Assembly: GCA_011033025.1 (NCBI GenBank)
Contig: WFMF01000668.1
Span: forward strand, 1-64,000
Direction: 5' to 3'
DNA from: Beroe forskalii
Taxonomy: Eukaryota; Ctenophora; Nuda; Beroida; Beroidae
Length of the DNA stretch: 64,000 bases
Both the position numbers and the translations under genes were made by a program. Positions 7,579 through 54,580 of this stretch are shown here, piece by piece (positions within the stretch are counted from its first letter, which is position 1; each line of letters begins with the position of its first letter). The notes beneath the pieces were generated by a model, which was not told where the DNA came from, made no database searches, and saw only the letters and a program-made list of their open reading frames with translations.

Positions 7579-7584
7579 TTTATT
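7579..7584 (-). terminator. Polyadenylation signal AATAAA
   Basis: AATAAA on the minus strand lies about 40 bp downstream of the stop at 7,625. It is conserved in the other arm at 47,541-47,546. Confidence 0.55.
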
Positions 7585-7624
7585 TAGTTTAATATCTCTT
7601 TCCTGGCAATGTTTTCTTATCAGA

Positions 7625-12372: not shown

Positions 12373-13387
12373 CCACATGCACTTGATACTTCCCAGGAAG
12401 GTAGCCGAGCAGTCCTTAATCGGACGCAGGACTTGGCTGTGTCGTACGTTGGTTAAGGCCATCATTGCGTACTAAACCAGGAGCACTAAACACATGCCTC
12501 CACACACCCAGTCTTAGTCTAGTTCCAGTGGCACGCTTAGTGGGGTAATGAAGTGCATTGGTATAGGGCATATCATAATATGATAATTATATGTCTCATA
12601 ATATATTCCACTGTTTTAGAGCGCTGGTTTAACGTGAAAAATTACAGAATGATTTGTGGTCAGGCAGACCATGCCACAAGCTAAGATTTAAACTTTCTAA
12701 GAAAGATCCTCCTCTGCAAAAGTACAAGGGTTTCAGTAAATGAGCTGCTGCACCAAAGGACCATGAGCCTGCTCAGGACGGAAGTGTAGAGGAAAGCACA
12801 GAGAAAGAGAGACGACTTCAGAGCCGGATGGAAGAGCAGAGCAAAGCGCAGGAAGGGAGAGACGACGCACAGCCCGGGAACAGAGAGTGCTTCATGTCGC
12901 CTAGCCATGAGCTCAAGCTGCACTTCTCAGCCTATAATCAGCCCTGCTATCCGACTATTGGATCGCAGCCTCCCCAGTTCTGGGAGGGATCCATTGGACC
13001 AGACACCGTTTATAACGAGATAACCGTGGTCTGAGGACAAATATTGGAGGAATTTCTCCAGTATTTGGGAGAGACGGCCCAGTGTTACCAGCGGGTGGTT
13101 TTACAGCGTCAAACCTGCGTACTTTCCTTCCTCCCAGCAGGATCCCCGTTAGACCGTTCATTTAAATAGTCACATTCGGATATATTCCACCGGCATTAGT
13201 GGGTATGTATACTCATAAGGAAAATACCATGAAATTGGTTGGCTGTGCACTCTCCCAAGCCATTAGCGTTGCGGCTGCGTTTAGCCACCAGTGGCTATCA
13301 TGCCTCATGCTATTTATCAGCGATCATTTCTTGTACTACATCTACCTTGTGAAGTGTGCTGCATGCTCTCCTGGTAGTGTAATTCTT

Positions 13388-13766
13388 TACATGTCACGCA
13401 GACAGGACGATGTCTAGTGTCTGCACTTCTTTAGATGTCACGCAGACAGGACGATGTCTAGTGTCTAGTGTCTGCCCTTCTTTAGATGTCACGCAGACAG
13501 GACGATGTCTAGTGCCTGCCCTTCTTTAGATGTCACGCAGACAGGACGGTGTCTAGTGTCTGCCCTTCTTTAGATGTCCCGCAGACAGGACGATGTCTAC
13601 TGTCTAGTGTCTGCCCTTCTTTAGATGTCACGCACACAGGACGATGTCTACTGTCTAGTGTCTGCACTTCTTTAGATGTCACGCAGACAGGACGATGTCT
13701 ACTGTCTAGTGTCTGCCCTTCTTTAGATGTCACGCAGACAGGACGATGTCTAGTGTCTGCCCTTCA
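13388..13766. repeat. 44-bp minisatellite, about 8 units (left arm)
   Basis: The unit begins GTCACGCAGACAGGACGATG and ends in CTTCTTTAGAT; some units carry an extra CTACTGTCTAGT. The same array in the right arm spans 1.9 kb. Confidence 0.95.
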
Positions 13767-14603
13767 TTAGCTCCATATGCAGCTGCTTGGAACAGCAGCC
13801 GGCTGCTATTGTGTAATTCTAAACACTTAATAACGGATCATAATATGTTGTATTGTGCCAGCAGTGCCTGCATTATGCATGAAGTTCCGCTGAAAAGATG
13901 AGCAGAGGGAAATTAGCGAAGAGCATTGTCGTTAAATGTGAAACGTCAGAGCCTCCATTGTCCCTGTTCTACGGCCCTCCGTAGTTACTAGTTACATTCC
14001 ACTCGTTTATAACTTCACAACATATGTTATACTCTCTCTTGAGATTACCGCAAAGGGGCATTTATTTAATGACCTAGTTTATTATCTTTATCATTTAATA
14101 ACCTATATGATTACAATTTATAATCGTTCACACTGAATTAAGCAAGGAAAATTATAATTACCTTATCCACAATTGACTATATATACTAAAATTAACTATG
14201 GAAGTTAAAGGACTGCATCAGTTCAGGCAGTCCATTAGGACCACGAGGGGTGCCTCATGACTCTTGCGAAAACAACAGGTTAGATTATAATCATCATTTA
14301 ATATTGGAAGAAGTTTTTAAGTTAATGCGTTTCATCCTATTTTGGGAAACAGCCCTCTGGGGTAGATTATGGTTCATTCGATACTCGTTTGTTGGTAGAT
14401 GAGTTAGTGATCTACTTAGAATATCCCTGAGTTGAATGGCATTGATTCTGTTTAATTAGAATTTAAGAGATCTTGTAATCGATCAGATCGTATTTCTATG
14501 ATCTATCGTTATACTGGGCAGTGCCAGCGGATATCATGGTTACTGCGAGCGGGGGTTTCAGGTTAAATTCCTGTTTAGAGTCTAGTCATGTTCGATTGTG
14601 AAA

Positions 14604-22057: not shown

Positions 22058-23296
22058 TCAGAGGCGCCCCTGGGCGGTGTACTGAGTAGTCCCATTGTCC
22101 GTCGCCTCGTCCGTCCCTGCTGTGGACGCCGTGAACCGCGTGTAGTTAGCCCGCATGGCGTCCGACATGCGGCGCAGGGAAAATACCGACTCAGAGTCCG
22201 CGCTATTGAGTCGGAGGACGAGCTTTGTGGACGCTCGGAGCTGCTGGTTCACGAAGCTCTTGACGGTGTTCATCCGCCAGTAGTAGATAAGGGGGTTGAT
22301 CGTACTGTTAACTGCCACGCACATGATGTACGTAAAGTTCCAGCTGTACCAGATAAGAACTGGATGGTTTTCGTAGGTCTTATGATAGCAGTCACTGACG
22401 CAGTTCTTACTCCACCCGGCTATCGACATGAGCAAGTAGTTTACGAACACCGGGATGTTGAAAACGATGTACGCCACTGTGAAGATGAGAATTGTCATCG
22501 TTGCTTGGAGCGGACCGACACCCTTTTTCTTCCCGATTTTGCTGAGTCGTCGTGCGTTCTCCGAATCAGCGCCGGAACTGAAGCGTTTTGCTGCCTGGCT
22601 GGGTCGTCGGACCTTGGCCTGTCGTCGTTCGTTGAGGAGTATGATGATGTAGGAGGTGGCACAGCTAATGCAAATGGGAATTACCGGGGCAGCCAAGGTC
22701 AGGGACCGTGAGATGGAGTTGAACTTGTAGCTCCAGTCTGCTGTTGGCAGTTCGTAGCAGTAAACATCACTGAACACGTACTCATAGGTTGCATCGTCCT
22801 TCAAGATGGGCACCGCCGTCCTTCCCACCAGGAACAAGAAATAGATGATAATGGCGCCCCACAGCGCTTCCTTCTTCAGCTGATACAGCGGCTTTATCAG
22901 GACCATAGTCCGGGAAATGGACATGATACCCACCAGGAAAACAGACATGAAGGGCAGGGCCTCCCAGAGGATGCCCCAGAAGTGGCAAAAGACGGAGTTC
23001 AAGAACCAGGCGCCTTCCCGCTGCTCAATGAAGCTGACGATGACTGGGAGCAGGGTGGCACACACCAACATGTCCACGATGGTGGTCAGGATGTAGATGA
23101 TGTTGAAGAAGGCCTTGTTGGCTCCCTGGGACACGGTCAGGCCCTTGGTCAGGAAGTACCGGAGGGACAGGATGTTACCCGGCACCCCCACCACTGTACA
23201 CAGGATGTACACTGCTGCGAATGTATAGTTGGTATAGGCTGGTATGCTGTACCCAGGGAGGGTTTCAGTGTGGGATACCACTACTTGTTCTTCCAT
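22058..23296 (-). CDS. Class A (rhodopsin-like) G-protein-coupled receptor, orphan, 412 aa
   Basis: This encodes a plasma-membrane seven-helix receptor that would couple an extracellular ligand to heterotrimeric G proteins. The N-terminus has a glycosylation sequon (N23-Y-T). Approximate helices: TM1 26-49 (G40-N41), TM2 62-90 (D75), TM3 101-134 (C104 at its start), TM4 145-165 (W146), TM5 195-222 (P204, P207), TM6 265-292 (P282) and TM7 315-340 (N-P-L-I-Y at 334-338). C104 can pair with C180 in loop 2; C299 and C303 lie in loop 3. Departures from the family norm: the DRY position reads I-S-R-T (R129 kept, acidic residue lost) and the CWxP toggle reads F-N-I-P (Trp replaced by N280). Loop 3 and the tail carry three RRxS sites (S233, S252, S378) that fit PKA phosphorylation. 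The start was chosen because a splice acceptor lies five bases upstream; the frame stays open for 45 more codons to 23,431, but that part is AT-rich and unlike the receptor. Ligand unknown. Confidence 0.92.
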   Translation of the reverse strand: MEEQVVVSHTETLPGYSIPAYTNYTFAAVYILCTVVGVPGNILSLRYFLTKGLTVSQGANKAFFNIIYILTTIVDMLVCATLLPVIVSFIEQREGAWFLNSVFCHFWGILWEALPFMSVFLVGIMSISRTMVLIKPLYQLKKEALWGAIIIYFLFLVGRTAVPILKDDATYEYVFSDVYCYELPTADWSYKFNSISRSLTLAAPVIPICISCATSYIIILLNERRQAKVRRPSQAAKRFSSGADSENARRLSKIGKKKGVGPLQATMTILIFTVAYIVFNIPVFVNYLLMSIAGWSKNCVSDCYHKTYENHPVLIWYSWNFTYIMCVAVNSTINPLIYYWRMNTVKSFVNQQLRASTKLVLRLNSADSESVFSLRRMSDAMRANYTRFTASTAGTDEATDNGTTQYTAQGRL

Positions 23297-23301
23297 GCTT
23301 C

Positions 23302-23345
23302 CTGGAGATGGTTGGTTAGGTTGGTGATAGATACAATTGCAAAAA
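23302..23345 (-). other. Likely 3' splice site of a 5'-UTR intron
   Basis: On the minus strand CAACCTAACCAACCATCTCCAG precedes GAAGCATGG, giving a branch-point-like CTAAC, a moderately pyrimidine-rich tract and AG five bases before the receptor start codon. The upstream exon was not identified. Confidence 0.5.
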
Positions 23346-24837
23346 CAGGAGTAGAGCTTTACTAAGATCATAAAACGAAAACAATACTTCAATTTATCTG
23401 GATATGTGCCCTGGGAAGCACTTATGTTCAAAAATATGAGGTTTTTGCTTGCCTTTTGATCATTGAAATATTGAACAAAGCAAATTACGTTAACAAGATA
23501 CTACAATGAGGAAATTGATAACAAGCAGCAGCCAATGACAAGAAAATAGAAACGAAGCTATGAAATAAAACAAAGTGGTTTCAGGCATAGCTCATATTCT
23601 TTCGAACTACACAGTACACACGGTAATTCCTATCTGAGTGAGCCAACTGCCTCCATCATGAGCAAATAGGCCATATTCCGCAACTTCAGACTTTCAGACT
23701 TGGGAATTACTGTACGGACTAAGAGACAAGTGCGTGTAATTTGGATCGGAACATGAACTGAAGCTCATTGGTGGTTGTAAATTGTGCGGAATTGTTTGGT
23801 TATTACGGTCTGCGTCATCTCCATAGTTCAAGTATCACGATCACTAAAAGGAAAGTATACACTATTTTAATACACGAATATAGAGGTCCTGTCGTACGCA
23901 TAAATTCCACATTAGTCAAGGGCTCCGTCTGATTTTCGATTTAATCACGGAGTATTATGTAGGGCAAATAACGAGCCAGAAGATTAGATTAATTTCAGTG
24001 CACCAATTCGTTTCAAATGTACACTATTATTCTGCGATGCTTTCCATTTCTTGTAAACAGACCTACAATAGATTGTAGAACTAGAGACAAGAAATTTGGT
24101 TAGCAAAAGAATTTATTGCAATATTGCAAAATTTGCAGGCTAGAATCCACGATTGGAATTAAGAATTAGAGAATTAGAAAGCATTTCTATGCTAACTTTT
24201 TAGTAAGTCAAACTAAAGGAGCTGTCGCTCAACATTGTTCTTTCCTAGAAAAATAGGGATCGTACCATAAAAATAAAACTCGCGTTTTCAAGAAAACCAT
24301 AACGCTGCTTTTATAATTATATAGTAGCGCATATTTCAGGAATTTTGTTAAAAAGTTAGTGCTGAAAGTCGTGTTATCTCAGAATATTCAGTATTCAACG
24401 TCTAATCGGTTGAAATGGAGTCAAATCAAAGTGAACTTTGCAATCTTAAACACTAGCAATGAATGAGAGCGATGATAACAAAAAATCTCCTACAAACATT
24501 ACGACATCGAAAAACAACGGATTCTACTTAAAGAAATCTCTTCCCTCCAAACCGATATAACAAACACACCTGGTCTGATAATTGCAAATATTTGGCATGA
24601 ACATGAGTTATAATATGGAGGAGCCTCCCTCCCCTCATACACGTGTACCACAACTGAGAGAAGAGAGAAGAGGAGAAGGTCCACATGGAACACCCCACCA
24701 CACGCTCACCACCGTCCTGTAATCACTCCCACCGGCTCATGTCTTGTAATGTGTGGAACGTACAACACAGCTGCTGCTCGTGGGAATAACTATCGTATTT
24801 CCTTCCAGGAGATCATGCACACACGCACACAAATATA
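23346..24837. other. Upstream flank of the GPCR; no gene seen
   Basis: AT-rich DNA without a supported exon. A promoter and first exon for the receptor probably lie here or further up, but I could not place them. Confidence 0.45.
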
Positions 24838-31232: not shown

Positions 31233-34070
31233 GTAGTATACCACTGGAGTGCCTGGTGAAACCCTCTAGGTACCTAATACTAGGTCACTCAGCGCTCAGT
31301 ATACCACTGGAGTGCCCTAGTGAAACCCTCTAGGTACCTAATACTAGGTCACTCAGCGCTCAGTATACCACTGGAGTGCCCAGGAAACCCTCTAGGTACC
31401 TAATACTAGGTCACTCAGCGCTCAGTATACCACTGGAGTGCCTGGTGAAACCCTCTAGGTACCTAATACTAGGTCACTCAGCGCTCAGTATACCACTGGA
31501 GTGCCCAGTGAAACCCTCTAGGTACCTAGTACTAGGTCACTCAGCGCTCAGTATACCACTGGAGTGCCCAGGGAAACCCTCTAGGTACCTAATACTAGGT
31601 CACTCAGCGCTCAGTATACCACTGGAGTGCCCAGGAAACCTCTAGGTACCTAATACCCTAGTCACCAGCGCTCAGTATACCACTGGGTGCCTGGTAAAAC
31701 CCTCTAGGTACCTAATACTAGGTCACTCAGCGCTCAGTATACCACTGGAGTGCCCAGGGAAACCCTCTAGGTACCTAATACTAGGTCACTCAGCGCTCAG
31801 TATACCACTGGAGTGCCCAGGGAAACCCTCTAGGTACCTAATACTAGGTCAGTATACAGGAGTGCCTGGAAACTCAGGTACCACTGGGTCACTCAGCTCA
31901 GAAACCTCATCTAGGTACCTAGTACTAGGTCACTCAGCGCTCAGTATACCACTGGAGTGCCCAGGAAACCCTCTAGGTACCTAATACTAGGTCACTCAGC
32001 ACTCAGTATACCACTGGAGTGCCCAGGAAACCCTCTAGGTACCTAGTACTACTAGGTCACTCTCAGTATACCACTGGAGTGCCCAGTGAAACCCTCTAGG
32101 TACCTAATACTAGGTCACTCAGCGCTCAGTATACCACTGGAGTGCCCAGTGAAACCTCTAGGTACCTAATACTAGGTCACTCAGCGCTCAGTATACCACT
32201 GGAATGCCCAGTGAAACTCCAGTATACCACTGGTCACTCAGAGTGCCCAGTGAAACCCTCTAGGTACCTAATACTAGGTCACTCAGCGCTCAGTATACCA
32301 CTGGAGTGCCCTAGTGAAACCCTCTAGGTACCTAATACTAGGTCACTCAGCACTCAGTATACCACTGGAGTGCCCTGTGAAACCCTCCTCTAGGTACCTA
32401 ATACTAGGTCACTCAGCGCTCAGTATACCACTGGAGTGCCCAATGCAACCCTCTAGGTACCTAATACTAGGTCACTCAGCGCTCAGTATACCACTGGAGT
32501 GCCCAGGGAAACCCTCTAGGTACCTAATACTAGGTCACTCAGCGCTCAGTATACCACTGGAGTGCCCAGTGAAACCCTCTAGGTACCTAATACTAGGTCA
32601 CTCAGCGCTCAGTATACCACTGGAGTGCCCAGTGAAACCCTCTAGGTACCTAATACTAGGTCACTCAGCGCTCAGTATACCACTGGAGTGCCCAGGGAAA
32701 CCCTCTAGGTACCTAGTACTAGGTCACTCAGCGCTCAGTATACCACTGGAATGCCCAGTGAAACCCTCTAGGTACCTAATACTAGGTCACTCAGCTCAGT
32801 ATACCACTGGAGTGCCCAGGGAAACCCTCTAGGTACCTAATACTAGGTCACTCAGCGCTCAGTATACCACTGGAGTGCCCAGGGAAACCCTCTAGGTACC
32901 TAATACTAGGTCACTCAGCGCTCAGTAAACCACTGGAATGCCCAGTGAAACCATCTAGGTACCTAATACTAGGTCACTCAGCGCTCAGTATACCACTGGA
33001 GTGCCCAGGGAAACCCTCTAGGTACCTAATACTAGGTCACTCAGCGCTCAGTATACCACTGGAATGCCCAGTGAAACCCTCTAGGTACCTAATACTAGGT
33101 CACTCAGCGCTCAGTATACCACTGGAGTGCCCAGTGAAACCCTCTAGGTACCTAATACTAGGTCACTCAGCGCTCAGTATACCACTGGAGTGCCCAGGGA
33201 AACCCTCTAGGTACCTAGTACTAGGTCACTCAGCGCTCAGTATACCACTGGAATGCCCAGTGAAACCCTCTAGGTACCTAATACTAGGTCACTCAGCGCT
33301 CAGTATACCACTGGAGTGCCCAGTGAAACCCTCTAGGTACCTAATACTAGGTCACTCAGCGCTCAGTATACCACTGGAGTGCCTGTGAAACCCTCTAGGT
33401 ACCTAATACTAGGTCACTCAGCGCTCAGTATACCACTGGAGTGCCCAGGGAAACCCTCTAGGTACCTAGTACTAGGTCACTCAGCGCTCAGTATACCACT
33501 GGAGTGCCCAGGAAACCCTCTAGGTACCTAATACCACTGGGTCACTCAGCGTCTCAGTATACCACTGGAATGCCCAGTGAAACCCTCTAGGTACCTAATA
33601 CTAGGTCACTCAGCGCTCAGTATACCACTGGAGTGCCCAGGGAAACCCTCTAGGTACCTAATACTAGGTCACTCAGCGCTCAGTATACCACTGGAGTGCC
33701 TGGTGAAACCCTCTAGGTACCTAATACTAGGTCACTCAGCGCTCAGTATACCACTGGAATGCCCAGTGAAACCCTCTAGGTACCTAGTACTAGGTCACTC
33801 AGCGCTCAGTATACCACTGGAGTGCCCAGGGAAACCCTCTAGGTACCTAATATACTAGGTCACTCAGCGCTCAGTATACCACTGGAATGCCCAGGGAAAC
33901 CCTCTAGGTACCTAGTACTAGGTCACTCAGCGCTCAGTATACCACTGGAATGCCCAGTGAAACCCCCTAGGTACCTACTCAGTATACCAATGGAGTGCCC
34001 AGAGAAACCATCTAGGTACCTACTCAGCATACCACTGGTATGCCCAGTGAAACCCTCTAGGTACCTACTA
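31233..34070. repeat. 63-bp tandem array, about 45 units
   Basis: The unit runs from AGTGCCCAGGGAAACCCTCT through AGGTACCTAATACTAGGTCA to CTCAGCGCTCAGTATACCAC. Variation is concentrated at the AGTGCCCAG(T/G)GAAA segment (CCCAGT, CCCAGG, CCTGGT, CCCTAGT) and at TAATACT/TAGTACT. Some units are truncated or fused (31,840-31,910, 32,210-32,240, 33,960-34,060). The period is 21 codons, so several long plus-strand frames stay open; frame-breaking indels between blocks argue that it is not coding. Confidence 0.97.
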
Positions 34071-38928: not shown

Positions 38929-39769
38929 TTCACAATCGAACATGACTAGACTCTAAAACAGGAATTTAACCTGAAACCCACGCTCGCAGTAACCATGATA
39001 TCCGCTGGCACTGCCCAGTATAACGATAGATCATAGAAATACGATCTGATCGATTACAAGGTCTCTTAAATTCTAATTAAACAGAATCAATGCCATTCAA
39101 CTCAGGAATATTCTAAGTAGATCACTAACTCATCTACCAACAAACGAGTATCGAATGAACCATAATCTACCCCCAGAGGGCTGTTTCCCAAAATAGGATG
39201 AAACGCATTAACTTAAAAACTTCTTCCAATATTAAATGATGATTATAATCTAACCTGTTGTTTTCGCAAGAGTCATGAGGCACCCCTCGTGGTCCTAATG
39301 GACTGCCTGAACTGATGTAGTCCTTTAACTTCCATAGTTAATTTTAGTATATATAGTCAATTGTGGATAAGGTAATTATAATTTTCCTTGCTTAATTCAG
39401 TGTGAACGATTATAAATTGTAATCATATAGGTTATTAAATGATAAAAGATAATAAACTAGGTCATTAAATAAATGCCCCTTTGCGGTAATCTCAAGAGAG
39501 AGTATAACATATGTTGTGAAGTTATAAACGAGTGGAATGTAACTAGTAACTACGGAGGGCCGTAGAACAGGGACAATGGAGGCTCTGACGTTTCACATTT
39601 AACGACAATGCTCTTCGCTAATTTCCCTCTGCTCATCTTTTCAGCGGAACTTCATGCATAATGCAGGCACTGCTGGCACAATACAACATATTATGATCCG
39701 TTATTAAGTGTTTAGAATTACACAATAGCAGCCGGCTGCTGTTCCAAGCAGCTGCATATGGAGCTAATG

Positions 39770-41660
39770 AAGGGCAGACACTAGACATCGTCCTGTCTGC
39801 GTGACATCTAAAGAAGGGCAGACACTAGACAGTAGACATCGTCCTGCGTGACATCTAAAGAAGTGCAGACACTAGACAGTAGACATCGTCTGTCGTGACA
39901 TCTAAAAGAAGGGCAGACACTAGACATCGTCCTGTCTGCGGGACATCTAAAGTAGACATCGTCCTGTCTGCGTGACATCTAAAGAAGGGCAGACACTAGA
40001 CATCGTCCTGTCTGCGTGACATCTAAAGAAGGGCAGACACTAGACGTCCTGTCTGCGTGTCGTCCTGTCTGCGTGACATCTAAAGAAGGGCAGACACTAG
40101 ACACCGTCCTGTCTGCGTGACATCTAAAGAAGTGCAGACACTAGACATCGCCCTGTCTGCGTGACATCTAAAGAAGGGCAGACACTAGACATCGTCCTGC
40201 GACATCTAAAGAAGGGCAGGTACTAGACATCGTCCTGTCTGCGTTACATCTAAAGAAGGGCAGACACTAGACATCGTCCTGTCTGCGTGACATGTAAAGA
40301 AGGGCAGACACTAGACATCGTCCTGTCTGCGTGACATCTAAAGAAGGGCAGACACTAGACATCGTCCTGTCTGCGTGACATGTAAAGAAGGGCAGACACT
40401 AGACATCGTCCTGTCTGCGTGACATCAGACACTCCTGTCGTCCTGTCTGCGTGACATCTAAAGAAGGGCAGACACTAGCGTGACATAGACACTCATCGTC
40501 CTGTCTGCGTGACATCTAAAGAAGGGCAGACACTAGACATCGTCCTGTGACATCTAAAGAAGGGCAGACACTAGACATCGTCCTGTCTGCGTGACATCTA
40601 AGAAGGGGCAGACACTAGACATCGTCCTGTCTGCGTGACATCTAAAGAAGGGCAGACACTGGGTCTGCGTGACACTAGACATCGCATCGTCCTGTCGTGA
40701 CATGTAAAGAAGGGCAGACACTAGACATCGTCCTGTCTGCGTGACATCTAAAGAAGGGCAGACACTAGACATCGTCCTGTCTGCGTGACATCTAAAGAAG
40801 GGCAGACACTAGACATCGTCCTGTCTGCATGACATCTAAAGAAGGGCAGTCGTCCTGTCTGCGTGACATCTAAAGAAGGGCAGACACTAGACATCGTCCT
40901 GTCTGCGTGACATCTAAAGAAGGGCAGACACTAGACATCGTCCTGTCTGTCTGACAAAGAAGGCAGACACTAGACATCGTCCTGTCTGCGTGACATCGAA
41001 GGGCAGACACTAGACATCGTCCTGTCTGCGTGACATCTAAAGAAGGCAGACACTAGACATCGTCCTGTCTGCGTGACATCTAAGAAGGGCAGACACTAGA
41101 CATCGTCCTATCTGCGTGACATCTAAAGAAGGGCAGACACTAGACATCGTCCTGTCTGCGTGACATCTAAAGAAGGGCAGACACTAGACATCGTCCTGTC
41201 TGCGTGACATCTAAAGAATGGCAGACACTAGACATCGTCCTGTCTGCGTGACATCTAAAGAAGGGCATCGTCCTGTCTGCGTGAACACTAGACATCGTCC
41301 TGTCTGCGTGACATCTAAGAAGGGCAGACACTAGACATCGTCTGTCTGCGTGACATCTAAAGAAGACAGACACTAGACATCATCCTGTCTGCGTGACATC
41401 TAAGAAGTAAAGGGCAGACACTAGACATCGTCCTGTCTGCGTGACATGACATCTAATCTAAAAGAAGGGCAGACACTAGACATCGTCCTGTCTGCGTGAC
41501 ATCTAAGAAGGGCAGACACTAGATATCGTCCTGTCTGCGTGACATCTAAAGAAAGGGCAGACACTAGATATCGTCCTGTCTGCGTGACTAGACATCGTCC
41601 TGTCTGCGTGACATCTAAGAAGGCAGACACTAGACATCGTCCTGTCTGCGTGACATCTAA
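39770..41660. repeat. 44-bp minisatellite, about 40 units (right arm)
   Basis: The unit begins GACATCTAAAGAAGGGCAGA and ends GTCCTGTCTGCGT, the reverse complement of the 13,388-13,766 array. Units are often truncated, unlike the tidy left array. Confidence 0.96.
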
Positions 41661-44600
41661 AAATTACACTACCAGGAGGCATGCAGCACACTTCACAAGG
41701 TAGATGTAGTACAAAGAAATGATCATGATAAATAGCATGAGGCATGATAGCCACTGGTGGCTAAACGCAGCCGCAACGCTTATGGCTTGGGAGAGTGCAC
41801 AGCCAACCAATTTCATGGTATTTTCCTTATGAGTATACATACCCACTAATGCCGGTGGAATATATCCGAATGCGACTATTTAAATGAACGGTCTAACGGG
41901 GAAGGAAAGTACGCAGGTTTGACGCTGTAAAACCACCCGCTGGTAACACGGGGCCGTCTCTCCCAAATACTGGAGAAATTCCTCCAATATTTGTCCTCAG
42001 ACCACAGTTATCTCGTTATAAACGGTGTCTGGTCCAATGGATCCCTCCCAGAACTGGGAGGCTGCGATCCAATAGTCGGATAGCAGGGGCTGATTATAGG
42101 CTGAGAAGTGCAGCTTGAGCTCATGGCTAGGCGACATGAAGCACTCTCTGTTCCCGGGCTGTGCGTCGTCTCTCCCCTTCCTGTGCTTTGCTCTGCTCTT
42201 CCATCCGGCTCTGAAGTCGTCTCTCTTTCTCTGTGCTTTCCTCTACACTTCCGTCCTGAGCAGGCTCATGGTCCTTTGGTGCAGCAACTCATTTACTGAA
42301 ACCCTTGTACTTTTTGCAGAGGGAGGATCTTTCTTGAAAGTTTAAATCTTAGCTTGTATGGTCTGCCTGACCACAAAATCATTCTGTAATTTTCACGTTA
42401 AACCAACTCTAAAACAGTGGAATATTAGACATATATTAACTCATATTGCTGTTATGCCCTGTCAATGCACTTCATTACACTAAGCGTGCCACTGGAACTG
42501 AACTAAGACTGGGTGTGTGGGCATGTGTTTGAAAGTGCTCCCAGTTTAGTACTGTGATGGCCTTAACCAACGTACGACACAGCCAAGTCCTACGTCCGAT
42601 TAAGGACTGCTCGGCTGCCTTCCTGGGAAGTATCAAGTGTCTGTGGAGGATGATTTCGGAGGAGATCATGAGGATATTCGAGGTGAGATCAGAGATGTAT
42701 TCAGGGGAATCGGGGGATAGGTCCCTCTGAAGACATGTTTCAAGATGGCTCATTGTCTTGCTCAAGTTTGTGGGGGCATGCAATGAAGTGAGACTTATCA
42801 TGGCTTTCTTGTTGGATGAATCATAGATATGGATATCAAACTGGCTACTGATCAGGCTATCATTGGCGATGGAAAATGAGCATCATGTTATGTGTAAGCC
42901 CCAAGGTTTGTCACATAATTACCCCCAGCTCCCTTCTCAAAAATCTGACAATTTAAGCTCCAAATTTTGATTAAAATATGCTATGTGAAAATAATCTGAT
43001 AAAGAAATTAAATCAAAGTTCATCAGGGTGTGCATTTTGAATTTCGATTTTCAATGCTTTGTATTGTAAGTACCATCAAAACGCTTTGTTTTATCCCCAA
43101 TAAGCAGAATTTAGAATCACTAAATAAACAATTCGTTCTAGCTGCTCACGTATTGGTGATAATAACAGTTGCAAGGAAAAGGCAGAATCTGAGATTTCTA
43201 GAGTCTAAATCACTATTTCCTAGAGCTGTGTTGTTAACCTGCCCGCATGATTGAAAAATAAACACTGCTGCAACTCTTATCAAGAAAGGGGTTGAAACAA
43301 ACGGAAATTCAATTTTTGCTCTTGTGTTTTAGGGATAATATTTTAGAATGACGGTTTAACTTTTAACGTCTTAATCTGGGTACAATACAGAACTCCCTAA
43401 GATTTGTCGTATGGCCGTGCTGTTTCGAGCACAACCATTCGTCATCTCAAAAAGTAAAGCGAAATCAGGCGCTGTAAGAACAGTTACTAATGAACGTATG
43501 TCTGGTGAGCCCGCATAAAATTCTATAATTTATGTTCGATATAATCGCAGCAATGTCTGTTTTTAGAGTCGCTGATCCCGCTTTATCGAGTCAAGAAACG
43601 TCGCTTTAATACTGGAAGCTAAGGAAAGTTCTCGGAAACGAAAATCAAATCGACTTCACTTTACCTTACTCCTTGCTTTTTTTTTAGTTTCACAAAATGG
43701 AAAAATTAGACTTTGATGTTTTTTTTAAGTTGATGTCAAGTTAAAATACTTTTCGGTAAACGTTTGCTCTCGTTATATCTCCAACTCACTTCTGCTAAAA
43801 ATCTGTGATCGGTGGACTTCCCGTGTAGTTAGACTCCCAAACTACCAAAACCAAAGTGATATTGTATGGCTTGTGTCTAGGTGTTTTCTCTAAATCAACA
43901 GTTAAGCAAAAGTTTGTTAATGAACGTGAATAACGTAACACAATTAACAAAATATGTTTGTAAATAGTAAAGAGGCGAGTTTGGCTTGAGTTTTGGCATA
44001 TGATTGTCCATATTAATATTGCAGGACCAACTCTCACACTTACGAAAGTACTACAAAATATTTGATAATAATGTCATGTCATCAATAAATGCTTCAATTT
44101 CCGAGGAATTCCATTGCAATTCAAAGCGGGATACTGTTTTCTAAACAGATTAGTTTCGTTCGTTTTACAGAAACGAAACATAAAAATTTTCATTGCCAGT
44201 CTAGAGCCACCCGAAACTTTCCTTTTCAGTACTCCCGTGTTTCGGTAGGAGGATTTGTCGGGGTTTACATGATCTCGAAATATAGTCACATGACTCCCTT
44301 TGATCCAAATTTCAAGGGGTGAGCGGGGAAACCAATCCTTTTGCATCGGAAAAATTGATGCTGCCGAAACAGTGCTGTTTCCCAGTTCAATGTAAAATTT
44401 CCCAAACACATATGGAATCTGTCTTCATGTTTTTTGACAGATCCCCTGATCTGTGGTTCGTCTGTCAACAACTGTCATTGCCTGTGAGATCAGCGGAGGT
44501 TGACTTAGGGCAGAAAACGACCTTACAGATCGCTGGAATAATTACTGTGTTAGAACCGTTCCCCTTCAAAATGTCTGGGCTGTGCAAAAATTCAAATTCC

Positions 44601-44859
44601 CTTTGCAACACTGCAATTTGGTTGGCATCAATTAAATTTAAAAAAAGTTTCTAAAAAATATTCGATATCAGTACCAGCTGCACAACTTGCATTCCTCTTT
44701 CAGTTAAACCTTATCGGAAAATATCTTGTCGGATGATAAATCATGATTGCGTGATAGAGGGTGGATATTTTTATGAACGAGGGCCTAGCTCATTTTCTGC
44801 CCGATAAAAAATTTCGATATATCCCAAAATCCCCATTTTCCCCCTAACGTGACAACTAA

Positions 44860-45640
44860 GTAAAAACAGCAGCCCCTTTCCTCCTTTCCCCTTTTCCCCC
44901 TTTTTTCCCCTCCCTTTCCCCCCTTCATCCCATTTCCCCCCTTTCCCCCCTTTTCCCCCCTTCCCATTTCTTTTTTTTCCCCCCCTTCTTTTTCTACCCC
45001 CCCCCAATCCTTTTTTTCTTTTCCCCTTTCCCCTTCAATTCTTTTCCCTTCCCCCATTCCCCTTCCCACCCATTTTTTTCACCCCATTTTTTCTTTTTCC
45101 TCCCCCCTTTCACCTTTCCCTCCTTCGCTTCATCCATTCTCCTTCCTTCATCCCATTCCTCCTTCCTTCATCCCATTTCCTCCTTCCCTTCATCCCATTT
45201 CCTCCTTCCCTTCATCCATTCCTCCTTCCCTTTAAATATTCCTCCTTCCCTTCATTCATTCCTCCTTCCCTTCATCCCATTCTCCTTCCCTTCATCATTC
45301 CTCCTTCCCTTCATCCCATTCCTCCTTCCTTCATCCCATTTCCTCCTTCCCTTCATCCCATTCCTCCTTCCCTTCTTCTCCCTTCATCATTCCTCCCTTC
45401 CTTCATTCCCATTTCCTCCTTCCCTTCATCCCATCATTCCTCCTTCCTTCATCCCATTTTCCTCCTTCCCTTCATCCCTCCTTCCTTCATCCATTCCTCC
45501 TCTATTTCCTTCCTCTATCTCATCCTTCCCATTATATCATTTCCTTCGTCTTTTGATCCCCCTCCCTTATTCCCTCTATACCTTTCCTTCTTTCTCCCTC
45601 TTTCCTTCGATCCTTCCCTTTAACCCTTTTGGATTTCTAA
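44860..45640. repeat. Pyrimidine-rich tract and 21-bp minisatellite (right arm)
   Basis: C/T-only runs (44,870-45,110) pass into repeats of ATTCCTCCTTCCCTTCATCC, the mirror of 9,765-10,003. It is more degenerate than the left copy. Confidence 0.92.
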
Positions 45641-47306
45641 ATATGCTCTGATGAGTGGTGATTTCCACAGTCTTTAGCCTCGTAGCAGAGGGTGTTGCAT
45701 GGTGTCAATACCTAGACACATCCTGATGGGCACTAGACATATAATGATAGACAGATTATGTGATGTCTGAGTTATGGAGTGGAGACTTGAGAGTGCTCGT
45801 ATATCAGTGATCTGAAACCTATATTGTTGTTAGTTTTCTCCGAAAAACCACTCCTACATGTGTGAAACAATGGTGTTGTGCCTTTGTAAGCCTACCTTTA
45901 GATGCTATGATTATGACACATAAACGTCTTACTAATTCTGCTGAATCTCGACGATTATCTTGTTCCTAACGCTAAATATGTTTTATACTGTTATGTCACC
46001 ACATATTTCAGTGGTCTCGTGCTCCATCTCCTCCCTCACCAGTTCCACTAAATAGTATGTTGCAAAACTAGAAAACAACGTTTGATTATACCACTGGGTA
46101 TCAATACTTCGAAAGGGCTCAAGTCCAAATGTAAGGGTTGGATAGTGCTTTATAATGCCTAGCTGGAAAACGTATTGGAAAAGAGGATGAAGACTTAGAC
46201 ATCTGTTTGACGTTATTGATATGAAGGTTGAGTTATCGGGTGAAGAAAAATTAAAATATTCAAATAATTAGAATTTGATATCTGATGATTGTCCTTGACT
46301 AGACCATGTAATATCGATTGCAGTGACTGCTTTCTATCAAAATAATGAATTTTAACATTTCGGCATGTCGTCGCTTCACTGCATTGGTCTCATGCACTTC
46401 CAATTCCCGGAATAATCAGTAGTTTAGACTTTAGGTATTCAAGGTGAATGAAGTCATCAATTACTCAACAGCAGTGTTTTAAGTTAACGCGCCAGTTATT
46501 GCAAAGTATAGCGTGGCTCACTTACTTAAAAACAACACAGAATAACTAAGACGAAACTTCAAAAATGGATAAACTCTGGCAAAACAATAACATATGTATT
46601 AGAAATGGTAAGTTTGTTCCATTTGATGGCGCTTAGAACCGTGTTGGGTAAGATATTTAGCACGTGAGTTCGCGTCGAAATTTTGTAGAAATTAAGGGAT
46701 TCCAAGAAATCGATTTTCACCCTGGAGTGTCGACTAGATTCCATTGGAGCATGTTGAAATAGGATTAATGTGCATAGGATTATGATCTCGGGCTCGAACT
46801 CTATTAGGGCGAGCACGAGTTACGTGGGTTCAAACTGCGTGAGGGAAAGTTATCTCATACCTGTGTTCAAATAGCGTGAAAGAAAGTTACCTGGGGTTCA
46901 AATAGCATAAGCACAAGCGTGGTCCAGCTTACCTACAGTTTTTCTCGTAGGAAACACCTCCCTTGTCCGTGTCAGAATTTACAATCTTACAATACCGGCC
47001 CTTTTCATTGCCCCAAAGACGTGATGTTTTTTACCTGTTTGAAAAGTACCAGTAGCATGAAATCAGTGGCCTCCCTTATGACTGACAGTGACTTTACCTT
47101 ACCAATACCATTACCGTACAATTGATTAGCTCAGAAATTCAGTTAAATTAGTTAATCTGTATTTTCTGACAACAACTAATACTGATAAATTATTAGCTTT
47201 AATCCTGACTGCACTTCCGTCGCTACTTCTACTTTAGTATTGCCCATTTCTCCCGTTGACCAGCCCCACTGTTAACTTACCTCCCCTAACCTGCCCTTAT
47301 TTTCAG

Positions 47307-47497
47307 CGCTGAAGTTTGACGAGAAGAATCTCTTCCCAAAGCACATGTTGGAGGGGAAGGACACGGCAGTGCGGGGCCGGAAGAAAGGAGCAGGAAACGC
47401 CACCTCCAACGCTAAGGCGGGGTCCAGCACGCGGGCTAGCAGCAGCTCCAACAAAACCCCCACCATCTTACCCCGCCTGCGGGCTGCGGCTTTCTGA
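47307..47497 (+). CDS. Terminal coding exon of an unidentified gene (right-arm copy)
   Basis: An acceptor (CTGCCCTTATTTTCAG) is followed by a 191-bp exon: two bases of a split codon, 62 codons, then TGA. The predicted peptide is identical to the left-arm exon, including FDEKNLFPKHMLEGK, the basic RGRKKG and the terminal LRAAAF. Nucleotide differences from the left copy are only CCA/CCT, TTG/CTG, GAG/GAA, ACC/ACT, TCC/TCT and GCG/GCA. Function unknown. It is transcribed rightward, away from the loop, so with the left copy it forms a divergently oriented pair whose 5' parts should lie inside the arms or the loop. It is in principle also possible that only one copy is expressed and recent gene conversion keeps the other intact. 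Confidence 0.72.
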
Positions 47498-47540
47498 TCA
47501 GAAAACATTGCCAGGTCGCCAGGAAAGAGATATTAAACTA

Positions 47541-47546
47541 AATAAA
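47541..47546 (+). terminator. Polyadenylation signal AATAAA
   Basis: Lies 44 bp past the stop of the right-arm terminal exon and matches the left-arm signal in position. Confidence 0.55.
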
Positions 47547-48224
47547 CAATGAATATTGAAAAATAACCCGCTTCTCCTTTGTCCAAGCAACTTTTGCAGT
47601 TTCAGTTTGCTTCATTGAAATAACTTCGTAATTGCAGCGTGGTTTTGGTACACAATAATATGCACATTAAACATTTCAACGGAATGGAACATGGTTTAAT
47701 GAAGTACAAATGTGCACTAATGCTATTAGTTAAGTATCACTTTTAGTTTTTACCCGCGTTAACTTTAAGGGTAACGGTTTTCACGTTATTCATATGTCAT
47801 TATCAATATGCAAGGCAAGGGACATGTCTATTCAGTCCTATATAAGAGATACAGATAATGGATAAATTGATATGTACTTTAAAAATTTATGAATTTCCAT
47901 TTTTCAGCCAAAAAAATATTGTAAATGTTCATTGTACTTGTAGCGAATTTTCATTTTAGACTTTTGAAATATAATTTCAGTATTTACATTACAAATACAA
48001 TCGAAGTCTCCATGGTAGACTCTGTTTTTATCAAATAAAGTTGAAATTTCATGTATTCAGGATAGAGAACAGGTCAAGATATTAACTCCTGCAAGTGTAA
48101 AATGTAAATATTTGTAATTCAAATTGTAAATAATGTATGTTGGAAGTTGTAATTTTATAGTTTGAAAGCAATTCTATTCCAAAAAAAACTCCCGATCTTT
48201 ATTTCTTAATTTAATCATTAATGG

Positions 48225-48870
48225 CGGACGCGCGCGCCCGCCGAAGGCGAAGGGCCGGGGTCAGACAACGTCTGACAAAACAGATTAACAGTGCAATGCC
48301 TGATATTTACGTTTAGTTGTCTGACTAGCTGTTGCTAAACACGTATACCCCTGTTTGCGTTGCGCGGCGCGCTTCCTCATTTTGTCCCATTTTGGAATCT
48401 TTGTACTTTTCTCACGGCGCGAAAGATATTGCGCTGTGTGAATGGTACTGTATAATAGTCTGTAAGCGCGCAGGAAAAATGCGCGCCGCGGGAAAACGAG
48501 TTTCCCCCGTCTATTGATAGCCATCCTCGACGGGCGATGTCCGTCCCTTTCTGACGTCCAAATGTGGAACGTTGCGCCGCGCGCGCGAGGGTAGGGTATC
48601 ATCCTACGATAGCCATCCAGTCAGAAGAAATAGACGGGGCAACGTCCGTCGAACCCAGCGAACACTGTGCACTCGTTGGGGCGATTTTTGCGCTACTCGG
48701 CGCCAAACCAACATATGACAAATTTTATACCGTTGGAAAGGTATTGTTCCCCCTGACACAGCGCAACTATTTTCAAGTGAATCCGATGTTTCTATCAGAA
48801 GTTATGGCCGATTTGCTGATTTTCTTGAAAATCGCGCCGCGCACGACCTAAATATTGTGTCGAGCTGAAA
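48225..48870. mobile_element. GC-rich modular repeat at the outer end of the right arm
   Basis: Shares GTCAGACAACGTCTGAC, GCTGTTGCTAAACACGTATA, GACGGGCGATGTCCGTCCC and CCAAATGTGGAACGTTGCGC with 5,862-6,930. TTCTTCTGACTGGATGGC is present in inverted orientation at 48,605-48,632. CCAGCGAACACTGTGCACTC recurs inverted near 62,455. A frame at 48,658-48,851 (containing ALVGAIFALLGAKPTYDKFY) is protein-like but unrecognised. Confidence 0.65.
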
Positions 48871-49569: not shown

Positions 49570-50381
49570 GGACTCCACACGGGCATTCACGGCACTCAGA
49601 CCTGGAACATACCGCACCGTTATCACTTGAATTCAGATTTGAGGTGTTAAGTTTAAGAATAATGTCTTTACTACTTTAGCTCTTTAGCAGGAAATAACTG
49701 GATAGAAGTGCGTTGATATCTAGAAGCATCGGTCTCATTTTCCCTGGAAATGACAGATATTTTAACGCTCCGTTACAAGGCCAAGGAAAGAGTGAGAAGG
49801 CATATCCACTTTTAGCATCATATGAAATTGAATCTTGTACACTTGTAGTGGCCGTGGTAATAATAACAGCTGGGGACGAAACAACTTCGGTAAATAGATG
49901 ACGTAGGTATTGGATAGGGAATCGGGGTAGAATGCATTGAAATTATAGTTCCTTATGATGACTATTAGCTACTTATGCAATGAAGGGAGAGGATCAAGGT
50001 AAAAAGGAGAAAATAAAATGGGCGCGTTCGTTTATAAAGTTATAAGCGCGCTGTGATTCGCGATTTTGAAATATTTAGCCGAGGACTTAATATCAAAATA
50101 TCATCATTGCATAATGCTAACGTAAAATGACCAAAAAGTCAGATGAGAATGTTTATTTCCACCTTTCTACACATCCTAACAATTTAATGTAGGTACCTAC
50201 CTCCAGCTCAATATCATGCGTTTGTTATAATCAGCAGGAGATCCAGGCTGCAGCATCATCTGCAATGGGGATCAGCGTCGGACAGTCAGATCATGGTGCC
50301 AGACTTGGTTTCCTGAAATTGTTCAAACACTTTTTTATTTTACCACAATGCTTAGCTTCCGTGAGATATTCAAAACAGTAT
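49570..50381. other. No gene seen
   Basis: AT-rich DNA between a minisatellite and the foldback transposon. Nothing further supported. Confidence 0.5.
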
Positions 50382-50409
50382 AAATTATCGGCAGATGGGC
50401 ACCTTGCAA

Positions 50410-50757
50410 TCGGCGCCGATCAGCGCTGATCAGCGCCGACCCACCGCCGATCAGCGCCGATCGGCGCTAATCAGCGCTGATCGGCGCTGATCAGCGATTG
50501 ATCAGCGCTGATCAGCGACACCGCCGATCAGCGCTGATCAGCGCCGATGGAAAAAATTTAAAATTTCATCGGCGGTCGTCGGCGCTGATCAGCGATGATC
50601 AGCGCCGATCAGCGCTGATCAGCGCCGATCGGCGATCAATCAGCGCTGATCGGCGAAATTGGCCGCCGATCAGCGCTGATCAGCGCCTTCCGAAACACCT
50701 GCATAGGAGCCTTAGAAAACTCCATCGGCGCTGATCAGCGCTGATCAGCGCCGATCG
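50410..50757. repeat. GATCAGCGC satellite, left end of the foldback element
   Basis: Many copies of a 14-15 bp word centred on TGATCA (GGCGCTGATCAGCGC and variants with CGATCGG), itself palindromic. The reverse-oriented array at 53,568-53,940 matches in overall order. Confidence 0.93.
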
Positions 50758-50887
50758 CTAACTTACTAAATTCGCATTGATATGGATATGTGGGTATGTT
50801 TCCCTTGAAAATATAATTCCGGCTGGCCCTAGGAAACGTTTAATGGCAAATCCTTGAACCTAGGTTATCACAACATCAACAACCATG

Positions 50888-51182
50888 TCAATAGTAACAC
50901 CGTTACTACACAGTAACACCGTTACGACACAGTCACACTGTTGTGACACAGCAACCCCTTTGCGACACGTCACACCGTCACGACACAGTAACACTATAAC
51001 TCTATAATTACGACACAGTAACACCGTAATTACGACGCAGTAACGCCGTTACGACACAGTAACACCGTTACGACACACTCACAGTAACGTCAGTCGTCGT
51101 TACAAGTACGAATCAGTAACGGTGCAACGACTCGGTAACATTGTTACGACACAATAACACCGGTGCGACACACTAACACCGT
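50888..51182. repeat. GTTACGACACAGTAACACC repeats, left block
   Basis: A degenerate repeat of about 20 bp. Its reverse complement (GTGTCGTAACGGTGTTACT) fills 52,139-52,870 on the other side of the core. Confidence 0.9.
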
Positions 51183-51650
51183 AAAGCCGCCGCAAATCGC
51201 CGAATCGGCGCCTTTAGGCGCCTATAGGCGGACAGGCGGTACCGCTTTTCGGCGCCTATAGGCGCCGATAGTTTTCGATTGTCGAATTATCGGCGGTCAT
51301 CGGCGCCGAAAAGCGCCTATACACCGCTTTTCGGCGACATCGGCGGTTTTCGACCGCCTATAGGCGCCTGTACGGCCATCTCCGCCTATAAGCGCCTATA
51401 GGCGCCTGTCGTGATATTTTTCATGGCCCGGTACGAGTCTGACGTATCGGCGCCTATAGGCGCCGATATTGATCTCTAGCAATCTGTGTTCTTCCTTATT
51501 TTTCGGCGCCTGCCGCCTATAGGCGCCGATGAATTAAGGCAGTGCTGCATTGGCAAGGACAAGTTTTACTAGCTGAGCCTCGAGTCAATTCTTCAATTAT
51601 CAGCCAAAGTAATGGATTCATCGTCCTAAATTCTATAGGCGCCTATGATA
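51183..51650. repeat. GGCGCCTATAGGCGCC repeats
   Basis: A second self-complementary GC-rich word, centred on CTATAG, scattered about 15 times. It has no mirrored partner in the right half of the element. Confidence 0.88.
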
Positions 51651-51677
51651 ATGAATTAAAGCAGTCCTAAACTCCTA

Positions 51678-52138
51678 AATTCGGCTAGAGTTAGGGTTTG
51701 GGTGAGGGTTTGGGTTTGGGTTAGGGTTTGGTTCAGGCTTTGCCCTTTGGGTTAGGCTTTGGGTTAGGCTTTGGTTCAGGGCTTGGGTTAGGGTTTGGGT
51801 TTAAGGTTTGGGTTAGGTTATGGGTTAGGGTTTTGGTTAGGGTTTGGGTTCGGGTTTGGGTTTGGGTTAGATTTTGGGTTAGGGTTTGGGTTAGGGTTTG
51901 GATTAGGGTTTGGGTTAGAGTTTGGGTTAGGGTTTGGGTTGAGGTTTGGGTTAGGGTTTGGGTTTGGGTTAGTGTTTGGGTTAGGGTTTGGGTTAGGGTT
52001 TGGGTTAGGGTTTGGGTAAGAGTTTGGGTTAGGGTTTGGGTTAGGGTTTGGGTTAAGGTTTGCGTTAGGGTTTGGGTTAAGGTTTGGGTTAGGGTTTGGG
52101 TAAAGGTTTGGGTTAGGGTTTGGGTTAGGGTTTGGGTG
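51678..52138. repeat. Interstitial telomere-like array (TTAGGG/TTTGGG)
   Basis: About 38 twelve-base units, mostly GGGTTAGGGTTT, alternate the metazoan telomere hexamer TTAGGG with TTTGGG. The 12-bp period leaves long spurious frames on both strands (Val-Trp-Val-Arg and Thr-Gln-Thr-Leu repeats). Confidence 0.95.
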
Positions 52139-52870
52139 TTACTGTTACTGTGTCGTAATGGTGTCACTGTGTCGTATCGGTGTTACTGTGTCGTATCGGT
52201 GTTATTGTGTCGTTACGGTGTTAGTGTTTCTTAACGACGTTATTGAGTCGTAACGACGTAACTGAGTCCTAACGGCGATGTGTGTCGTAACGGCGATGTG
52301 TGTCGTAACGGCGATACTGTGTCGTATCGTTGTTACTGTGCCGTAACGACGATACTGTCGTAACGTTGTTACTGTGTCGATACGGCTTCACTGTTTCGTA
52401 ACAACGTTACTGTGTCGTAACGGCATTACTGTGTGGTAACGACGTTACTGAGTCGTAACGACGATACTGTATCATAACAGCATTACAGTGTCGTAACGGT
52501 GTCACTGTGACGTAACAGTATTTCTGCTTTACTGTGTCGTAACGTTGTTACTGTGCCTAATTATAGTAAACAGTGTTACTGTGCCGTTAATGTGTCGTAA
52601 CGCTGTTTCTGTGTCATAACGGAGTTTCTGTGCCGTTACTTCTCATCTCTGTCGTAACTGTGTTACTGTGTCGTAACGACGATACTGTCGTAACGTTGTT
52701 ACTGTGTCGATACGGCTTTACTGTTTCGTAACAACGTTACTGTGTCGTAACGGCATTACTGTGTTGTAACGACGTTACTGAGTCATAACGATGATACTGT
52801 GTCATAACAGCATTACAGTGTCGTAACGGTGTCACTGTGACGTAACGGTGTTTCTGCTTTACTGTGTGGC
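52139..52870. repeat. GTGTCGTAACGGTGTTACT repeats, right block
   Basis: A degenerate array of about 20-bp units with a higher-order duplication: TACTGTGTCGATACGGCTT and its surroundings occur near 52,372 and 52,700. Confidence 0.9.
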
Positions 52871-52871
52871 A

Positions 52872-53143
52872 CAGGATAGACGTATGATACCTTTACTAAT
52901 TTACTAGACCGCAACATTGTTACGACGGAGAGGCGAAGCAGCACCAAAACTCGGCGCAGTAACACTGTTGCTATAATTAGGCACAGTAACAACGTTACGA
53001 CACAGTGTGTCGTAACGTTGTTACTGTGCCTAATTATAGTTAACAGTGTTACTGCGCCGGAGTTTCTGTGCCGTTACTTCGCATCTCCGTCGTAACAATG
53101 TTGCGGTCTAGTAAATTAGTAAAGGTATCATACGTCTATCCTG
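52872..53143. repeat. Spacerless 136-bp-arm palindrome
   Basis: CAGGATAGACGTATGATACC at the left pairs with its complement ending at 53,143; the centre is near 53,006-53,008 at CACAG/TGTG. The pairing is nearly complete, with a few mismatches and small indels in the middle of each arm. Confidence 0.9.
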
Positions 53144-53567
53144 AGCCGAGTTATGAACGAAATACGTTCGATTATGACCTCAGGACTTTGAATATTTTTG
53201 CGTCCAATATTCTCAACGTCCAATTTGCGAAATTAGGGCGTTGGGAGATATGGGCGCATCTTATACGTACATACTTTCAAAGTTAATAAATCGTAGTTTG
53301 TATGAAAGTACTTAAACTATCTGGCCGCTTATTTTGATACTATTTTTTTTGAATATTTGTTTAAGTAAGCCTATAATCGGCCCGGCGCTACGGGTCTGTA
53401 GTTGTTTACAATATTTAATGTTGTTGTTGACTATTGACATGGTTGTTGATGTTGTGATAAACCTAGGTGCGAGGATTTGCCATTAAACGTTTTCCAGGGC
53501 CAGCCGGAATGATATTTTTAAGGGAAACATACCCACATATCCATATCAATGCGAATTTAGTAAGTTA

Positions 53568-53940
53568 GCGATCGGCGCTGATCAGCGCTGATCGGCGCTG
53601 ATCAGCGCTGATCAGCGCCGATGGACTTTTCTAAGGCTCCTATGCAGGTTTTGTAGGCGCTGATCAGCGCTGATCAGCGCTGATCGGCGGTTAATTTCGC
53701 CGATCAGCGCTGATTGATCGCCGATCGGCGCTGATCAGCGCTGATCAGCGCCGACGACCGCCGATGAAATTTTAAATTTTTTTTCCATCGGCGCTGATCA
53801 GCCGATCAGCGCTGATCGGCGGTGTCGCTGATCAGCGCTGATCAATGCTGATCAGCCATTCAGCGCCGATCGCGCTGATCAGCGCCGATCGGCGCTGATC
53901 GGCGGTGGGTCGGCGCTGATCAGCGCTGATCAGCGCCGAT
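53568..53940. repeat. GATCAGCGC satellite, right end of the foldback element
   Basis: Mirror partner of 50,410-50,757. Confidence 0.93.
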
Positions 53941-54349
53941 TGCAAGGTGCCCATCTGCCAAATTATCTTTATATTGATCAGCAACCCCAGTTAAGAAAGG
54001 GCAACATTTGTAAGTCATTTTAGTTTCATGAAATGATTCCTGTAAAACGTAGGTGGGTACATGTAGTCAAATGTCTTATCTACAAAGGTGTATGAGAGTA
54101 TGAGTATACTACAAACATAACAAAATACTATTACATATCGTATATATCGTACTTCTGCTCTTATGTACCTGGGTACCTATCAACGTTGTAGGTATATCGT
54201 TTGGTTGGGTACTGATCCCATAAAAACCGGTCAGCGGAGTGAAAAATCGCCGGTAGGTAGAGATCTCCATCTTCATGACGAGATTAATGAAGACGTTCAT
54301 AACTACTCCTCAACAATTCAACAAATCATTAATAGGTATAGCTGTATAG

Positions 54350-54580
54350 TCTCATCATTGCTATTGCGACGATGCTAGGAAAATATACGAGAAAATAGAG
54401 AATATTGTAAAACGGTTGAACCTGGCCGAGATCGTGCTGATTCAGCACACAAACTATAATGTGTATGAGTTTACTGAAATGCCGCTGCATCTGAGCAGCT
54501 GCAGTTTTGGGCAGGAATGCAGCAAAACTATAATTAGAGCACAAATTGCGCGAAAGGGACGCTCGTGCGTAATCCTGTGA
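54350..54580 (+). pseudogene. Coding-like fragment, unrecognised
   Basis: A 76-codon frame opens after a stop at 54,347 and ends in TGA at 54,578-54,580. The composition is protein-like: DDARKIYEKIENIVKRLNLA, then LIQHTNYNVYEFTEMPLHL. There is no start codon in a good context. The final codons overlap the left arm of an imperfect hairpin (54,541-54,644). It may be an exon or a decayed element; no family recognised. Confidence 0.3.

Follow-up and report, generated by a model that had tools for sequence, protein, structure and literature searches.

A foldback transposon family with mirror-stacked satellites in the ctenophore Beroe forskalii

By design, the closest described relatives of the mobile element considered here are Tm1, Tetris, Galileo and FB. 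The element lies at 50390-53959 in a 64,000-nucleotide stretch of the ctenophore Beroe forskalii (contig WFMF01000668.1 of assembly GCA_011033025.1, positions 1 to 64,000 of the forward strand), the whole of which is called the window. FB of Drosophila and TU of sea urchin have inverted ends made of short tandem repeats and are not known to be related to it in sequence; TU elements have 15-bp repeats and 8-bp target-site duplications. Foldbacks of Drosophila and sea urchin are also mentioned in the paper on Tetris (PMC4079207).

Tm1, a Mutator/Foldback family of root-knot nematodes (PMC3169594), resembles the Beroe element in its composite inverted repeats with variable short tandem repeats, in uniting larger non-autonomous forms with forms like miniature inverted-repeat transposable elements (MITEs) in one family, and in having some copies without duplications, explained there by exchange between copies. 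It differs in its 9-bp duplications and its mostly 14-bp repeat, non-palindromic by eye, where the Beroe family has 8-bp duplications and a palindromic 10-bp word, and in that its 7-bp outer motifs are asymmetric and one of its copies codes for a Mutator-like element (MULE) transposase, whereas here the ends are symmetric and no transposase was found. Tetris/DAIBAM of the Drosophila virilis group (PMC4079207) is likewise a foldback with tandem-repeat arms for which no autonomous copy was found, with a MITE partner with common ends, duplications of 8-10 bp and repeats that can seed satellite arrays. Its arms contain a single repeat of ~220 bp; here short satellites are mirror-stacked, and two of them fold strongly on themselves. 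Galileo of Drosophila (PMC3573991, PMC3688188) shares long, internally repetitive inverted ends, exchange between copies and an association with inversions, but has a P-superfamily transposase; a search of the Beroe genome for the P-type transposase (PF21787) gave no match, and the control genomes were silent too. Rehavkus-1_TC of Tribolium (PMC10218199) is also a DNA transposon with a satellite inside inverted termini, though one of 9.5 kb whose satellite has a 164-bp unit, as against units of 10-22 bp here.

The window element belongs to this known structural class as a variant and is not a wholly new type. Long terminal inverted repeats composed of tandem repeats flank a variable middle; copies are scattered through the genome with target-site duplications, exact and 8 bp long in 24 of 31, and with empty sites; and short forms of 70-138 bp (L066, L067, L068, L069, L072, L073) have exact duplications and the family ends and were probably derived by deletion. 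The element is real, bounded and formerly mobile, and part of a sizeable family. It is very probably a foldback-form DNA transposon of the cut-and-paste kind, and a non-autonomous one. Nearly all of it consists of short repeats mirrored about the middle. What is unusual about the family is the mirror-stacking of its satellites and a size series that runs down to a 70-bp hairpin.

Duplications were counted in 31 copies with both ends. L014, L017, L018, L026 and L029 were excluded, one end not having been found in the stretch, as was the further short copy at L066's right end, whose duplication is 7/8 by eye. Besides the 24 exact cases, four copies (L013, L031, L032, L070) show a duplication with a one-base difference. 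In a control that paired left and right flanks of different copies there was no exact match and none with one mismatch among 930 pairs. The target sites are AT-rich, with no clear motif by eye.

Sites without the element provide further evidence of insertion. The flanks of the window copy (50280-50389 and 53960-54077) are an older dispersed repeat. Joined with one AAATTATC to form a 220-base query, they match 14 places in the genome: seven run the full length of the query at 84-96% identity and lack the element, two are the window copy's own flanks and five are partial. One empty site lies in inverted orientation 16 kb off on the window's contig (C767:69877-70109, outside the window). The joins inspected at five of the seven empty sites all read ...CAGTATAAATTATCTTTATATT..., which is exactly the joined sequence with a single AAATTATC; four of these five have a 13-bp tandem duplication further along, away from the join. 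The sequence-only reading of the window, an earlier note made without database searches, had described a bounded mobile unit on account of its exact termini and exact AAATTATC duplications. Both are confirmed, and the empty sites and further copies it proposed to look for exist. An autonomous copy, which it also proposed to look for, was not found among the 26 copies scanned. Its suggestion that the element is probably young finds partial support in the intact duplication and in arms that share 97-98% identity with the closest arms of other copies examined, though neither of these is a clock.

Two other copies tell the same story from the side of the host sequence. L032 is inserted in a reverse-transcriptase frame. 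With the flanks put together, the frame runs on uninterrupted past the join; its match to RVT_1 (residues 4-72, E 9.5e-9) extends over that point, and it also matches an R2 retrotransposon protein (E 1e-5). The frame into which L010 is inserted is also open across its join; it has no Pfam match, and by resemblance it may be a long interspersed element (LINE). A search for empty sites of these two copies gave 41 matches in all. The L010 join is spanned by 18 listed places, the best at 100% identity. The L032 join is spanned gap-free at one listed place, on contig C1112, and 20 further places cover the stretch with ~42 extra bases, which the C1112 pieces put off the join. Empty sites and joined frames are what cut-and-paste insertion with an 8-bp stagger predicts.

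The window copy is 3570 bp long, and its first bases, GGCAGATGGGCACCTTGCAATC, recur as their exact complement at its other end. The ends of the family are of the GGCAGATG type, with the terminal sequence GGCAGATGNNNACNTTGCAATC, and open with 5'-GG. The parts of the window copy, with the array letters used below, are these:

50382-50389, unstranded: left target-site duplication AAATTATC, 8 bp, one copy of which stands at the join in 5/5 empty sites inspected
50390-50411, plus strand: left terminus GGCAGATGGGCACCTTGCAATC, 22 bp, from the sequence and family matches
50412-50757, plus strand: left arm, A array, palindromic 10-bp word GATC[A/G]GCGC[T/C] plus spacer words
50758-50899, plus strand: left terminal inverted repeat, inner non-satellite part
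about 50893-51190, plus strand: B array, 19-bp satellite AGTAACACCGTTACGACAC (50893-51077 and 51145-51181 by the tandem-repeat finder)
51195-51535, plus strand: C region, palindromic GGCGCCTATAGGCGCC words
51690-52137, plus strand: T array, 12-bp GTTAGGGTTTGG (tandem-repeat finder)
52143-52856, minus strand: b array, inverted 19-bp satellite, mirror partner of B
52872-53143, unstranded: inner inverted repeat (CAGGATAGACGTATGATACC...), each arm ~60 bp as judged by eye
53425-53569, minus strand: right terminal inverted repeat, inner non-satellite part
53570-53937, minus strand: right arm, A array
53938-53959, minus strand: right terminus, 22 bp, complement of the left
53960-53967, unstranded: right target-site duplication AAATTATC, exact

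The terminal inverted repeats (50390-50899 and 53425-53959) are 85% identical. The 10-bp array word of both arms is GATCAGCGCT, and words of the GATC[A/G]GCGC[T/C] form are self-complementary or nearly so; the ends are thus tandem arrays of a self-complementary word, as the sequence-only reading had it. Folded as DNA, the left arm (50390-50770) is far more stable than its shuffles (z -16.6; 0/100 shuffles equal), as is the C region (z -10.9). The B array (z -2.0; 6/200 shuffles equal) and the T array (z -1.4; 9/100 equal) barely beat theirs, so that strong self-complementarity is limited to A and C. Of the three further satellites that had been proposed for the core, the 19-bp and 12-bp arrays stand; the third consists of spaced GGCGCCTATAGGCGCC words in which the tandem-repeat finder reports no array. 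Rfam at gathering thresholds found nothing over 50000-54400. The T array (51690-52137) is telomere-like TTAGGG interleaved with TTTGGG, and elsewhere, for example in L010, it abuts its own inverse in mid-element. A near-absence of GGCGCC between GATC sites (4/681) was dropped as a finding: the copies go back to shared ancestral arms and cannot be counted as independent cases.

The family is widespread. The 27-bp terminus with up to three mismatches occurs at 113 places in the 216-Mb assembly, and a looser 22-bp core with up to one mismatch at 297; the reversed controls gave 0 in both cases. Positions are known for about 100 of the 297, and the lists of termini are incomplete. The ends fall into two main subtypes, NGC-type and TTG-type, and the exact TTG 27-mer is found at 76 places. 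The left-end kilobase, used as a query, gave at least 248 matches, 40 of 609 candidates having been scored. The copies examined came from 26 stretches, then two long pairs of termini, one stretch holding a 101-bp copy, and six short pairs; L066, taken as a long pair, turned out to be two short copies. Copies with exact duplications span 70 bp to 5.3 kb, the smallest being L068, a perfect 70-bp hairpin. Past the intact terminus core, the third base fails to be C at merely seven places, and terminus and satellite word therefore go together. Five of the seven have the usual word with T, among them the short copies L069 (C458) and L073 (C607), and two (C769, C1069) deviate otherwise. Large pairs of termini, 13.8 kb in extent on C357 and 12.3 kb on C770, were also seen. 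A 6.4-kb pair on C758, considered as an element with a captured receptor gene, was rejected: two short copies there bracket other sequence that includes a receptor-like frame.

A word map over 23 copies relates their internal layouts. Six fuller copies (L009, L010, L011, L012, L031, L032) have the order A-B-C-T|t-C-b-A. In another six (L020-L023, L027, L030) the order is A-B-b-P-A, where P is a 22-bp satellite present on one side; in L019 it lies on the opposite side. Four are mainly A-B-b-A (L015, L016, L024, L028), and the window copy, L013, L025, L033, L034 and L065 are partial or stand outside these groups. We read the window copy as the full form minus the mirror half of T and C. The sequence-only reading had not recognised the combination of arrayed ends and core mosaic; most of that core is shared in sequence with other copies, and its modules recur elsewhere as mirrored series. 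The seemingly private mosaic is a mirror-ordered satellite stack with later losses.

The arms carry no memory of the side on which they stand. When different copies are compared, arms from the same side have a mean identity of 0.898 and arms from opposite sides one of 0.899; the two arms of a single copy average 0.941 (23 copies throughout). In some cases a left arm is closest to the right arm of another copy. These similarities fit exchange or conversion between ends, as has been suggested for Galileo (PMC3573991).

It could be held that no mobile element is involved and that a complex satellite locus has been spread by segmental duplication, or is an artefact of assembly. Minisatellites do abound in the window, which also has a large inverted duplication, and the copies on C858 have common flanks and were therefore duplicated together with their surroundings. 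However, the flanks are distinct, with exact 8-bp duplications, in 24 of the 31 copies, against none of the 930 cross-pairs, and for the window copy the empty sites refute this explanation unless they are themselves assembly errors. We regard it as most improbable. Some observations do weigh against a cut-and-paste transposon. Three of the 31 copies (L034, L065, L071) have no matching duplication. No transposase with these ends was found in the 26 copies whose frames were scanned, and its action in trans is an inference. Nor need the 19-bp satellite be wholly part of the element. Its dimer, with up to three mismatches, occurs at 360 places (control 0); by eye, about 100 listed places form 49 clusters, of which 34 lie within ~6 kb of a listed terminus and 15 lie away from listed termini. 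Some of the 15 may sit in unlisted or decayed copies, given the incomplete lists of termini. A long, fairly uniform array of the 19-bp satellite at C528:26906-27744, a contig with no listed terminus, is possibly free satellite derived from the element.

The scan covered frames of at least 75 amino acids, of which the 26 copies contain 119; 66 low-complexity satellite translations were left out, as were L026, L029 and the short copies. The 53 non-repetitive frames gave no Pfam match at E 0.01. As no recognisable protein was found in them, the transposase of this non-autonomous transposon probably acts in trans. It may be of the Merlin/IS1595 type, which would make the element a foldback-form Merlin derivative, and we put the chance of this a little short of even. 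Merlin elements are described with terminal 5'-GG and duplications of 8-9 bp (PMC8101967), features found in the Beroe ends and their 8-bp duplications. The strict adherence to 8 bp, together with the 5'-GG, leans towards Merlin over Tm1, the MULE relative. The genome contains 35 Merlin-type DDE matches, several of them in open frames of more than 300 amino acids, but by eye 0/35 lie within ~5 kb of a listed terminus, and the DDE_Tnp_IS1595 domain is absent from the scanned frames of the 26 copies. The nearest listed pair is on C891, where a Merlin-type match (470167-470430) and an intact terminus (480809, with T at the third base) are ~10 kb apart.

A MULE transposase (Mutator, for example Phantom-type), as in Tm1 and FARE, is a tentative second candidate, on balance unlikely. 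There are 46 MULE-domain matches in the genome, several in long open frames, yet no listed match lies within any copy examined, and the one near a listed terminus (C434, 5 kb) falls outside a separate 101-bp copy. MULE duplications mostly measure 9 bp, and ones of 8 bp are not unheard of. Foldbacks with tandem-repeat arms and MULE transposases have been described (Tm1, FARE; PMC3169594), but the duplications of Tm1 are of 9 bp, a length found in 0/31 copies here. That the enzyme belongs to some other superfamily seems more doubtful again. A genome search for the KDZ (Zisupton) transposase (PF18758) gave no match, and the control genomes gave none either. The 8-bp duplications of hAT elements follow nTnnnnAn, whereas among the 24 exact duplications T is at position 2 in seven and A at position 7 in three; no Pfam match of any kind, hAT included, came from the 53 scanned frames, and no genome-wide hAT search was made. 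Were the transposase of Merlin type, that superfamily would gain a foldback member; one literature search for such a combination yielded a single plant review.

The following course of events may be proposed for the foldback transposon. A transposase encoded elsewhere would recognise the 22-bp terminus, with the GGCGC satellite word next to it probably recognised too, and would excise the element and insert it at staggered cuts 8 bp apart, repair fill-in then producing the target duplications. The satellite arms travel within the mobile unit, plausibly as extra transposase-binding sites, and also supply both ends with long interchangeable homology. Such assistance of the arms in recognition is suggested by Galileo, the arm repeats of which contain additional transposase-binding sites (PMC3688188). 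Array length would shift by slippage and unequal exchange. The mirrored satellite stacks could be put down to inverted exchange between ends, or to gene conversion between them, and the short hairpin forms to deletion. The composite picture of a mobile unit built of several satellites in mirror order (A-B-C-T|t-C-b-A), with a 70-bp hairpin as its minimum and a recognition signal that includes the satellite word, is unlikely enough to be offered with reserve.

Traces of rearrangement were seen at some copies. The left ends of L034 (C44:407880) and L065 (C44:441489) are ~33 kb apart on one contig and have one site in common in opposite orientation; the left flank GGCAAAAT of one is the complement of ATTTTGCC, the left flank of the other, as though an inversion had split one insertion. 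A simple reciprocal inversion fits only in part: the one shared site agrees with it, but the remaining ends, CTGACGCA and GGCGGTGT, mismatch its prediction. L018 (C244) and L026 (C171) are left and right half-elements on different contigs with the common 8-bp flank TAGAAATT, which hints at a translocation or at a misjoin or other assembly error. Both cases are hints of rearrangement via the elements and not proof.

Elsewhere in the window, the large inverted duplication (6557-14602 and 38929-48378) has arms of ~8-9 kb, roughly 80-95% identical and ~24 kb apart. Inverted counterparts of its minisatellites at 9767 and 13383 stand at about 45096 and 39764. Three readings suggest themselves: a giant palindrome, an element with inverted ends of very large size, and a haplotype assembly fold. 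A 63-bp minisatellite, for which periods of 126 and 189 bp are listed too, occupies 31235-33977, and the minus strand at 22058-23431 holds a stop-free rhodopsin-type receptor frame of 457 amino acids with 11 relatives at 36-68% identity.

Copies of the family may have broken and rejoined chromosomes, and the trace left by L034 and L065 resembles the inversions of Galileo and DAIBAM. Satellites and transposons are often treated apart, and the origin and spread of new satellites are an open question. Here one genome holds a graded series of 70-bp hairpins, arms with short arrays, full mirrored copies and satellite arrays that lie away from listed termini. For the descent of satellite from element, as against the reverse, Tetris is a precedent (PMC4079207); the graded series makes the order of events testable, that is, whether the satellites were born inside the element or captured by it. 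If the less likely composite picture given above is true, the mirror order would be the trace of ends extended again and again, in inverted form, from within the element, and the transposon would be both a factory and a carrier of new satellites.

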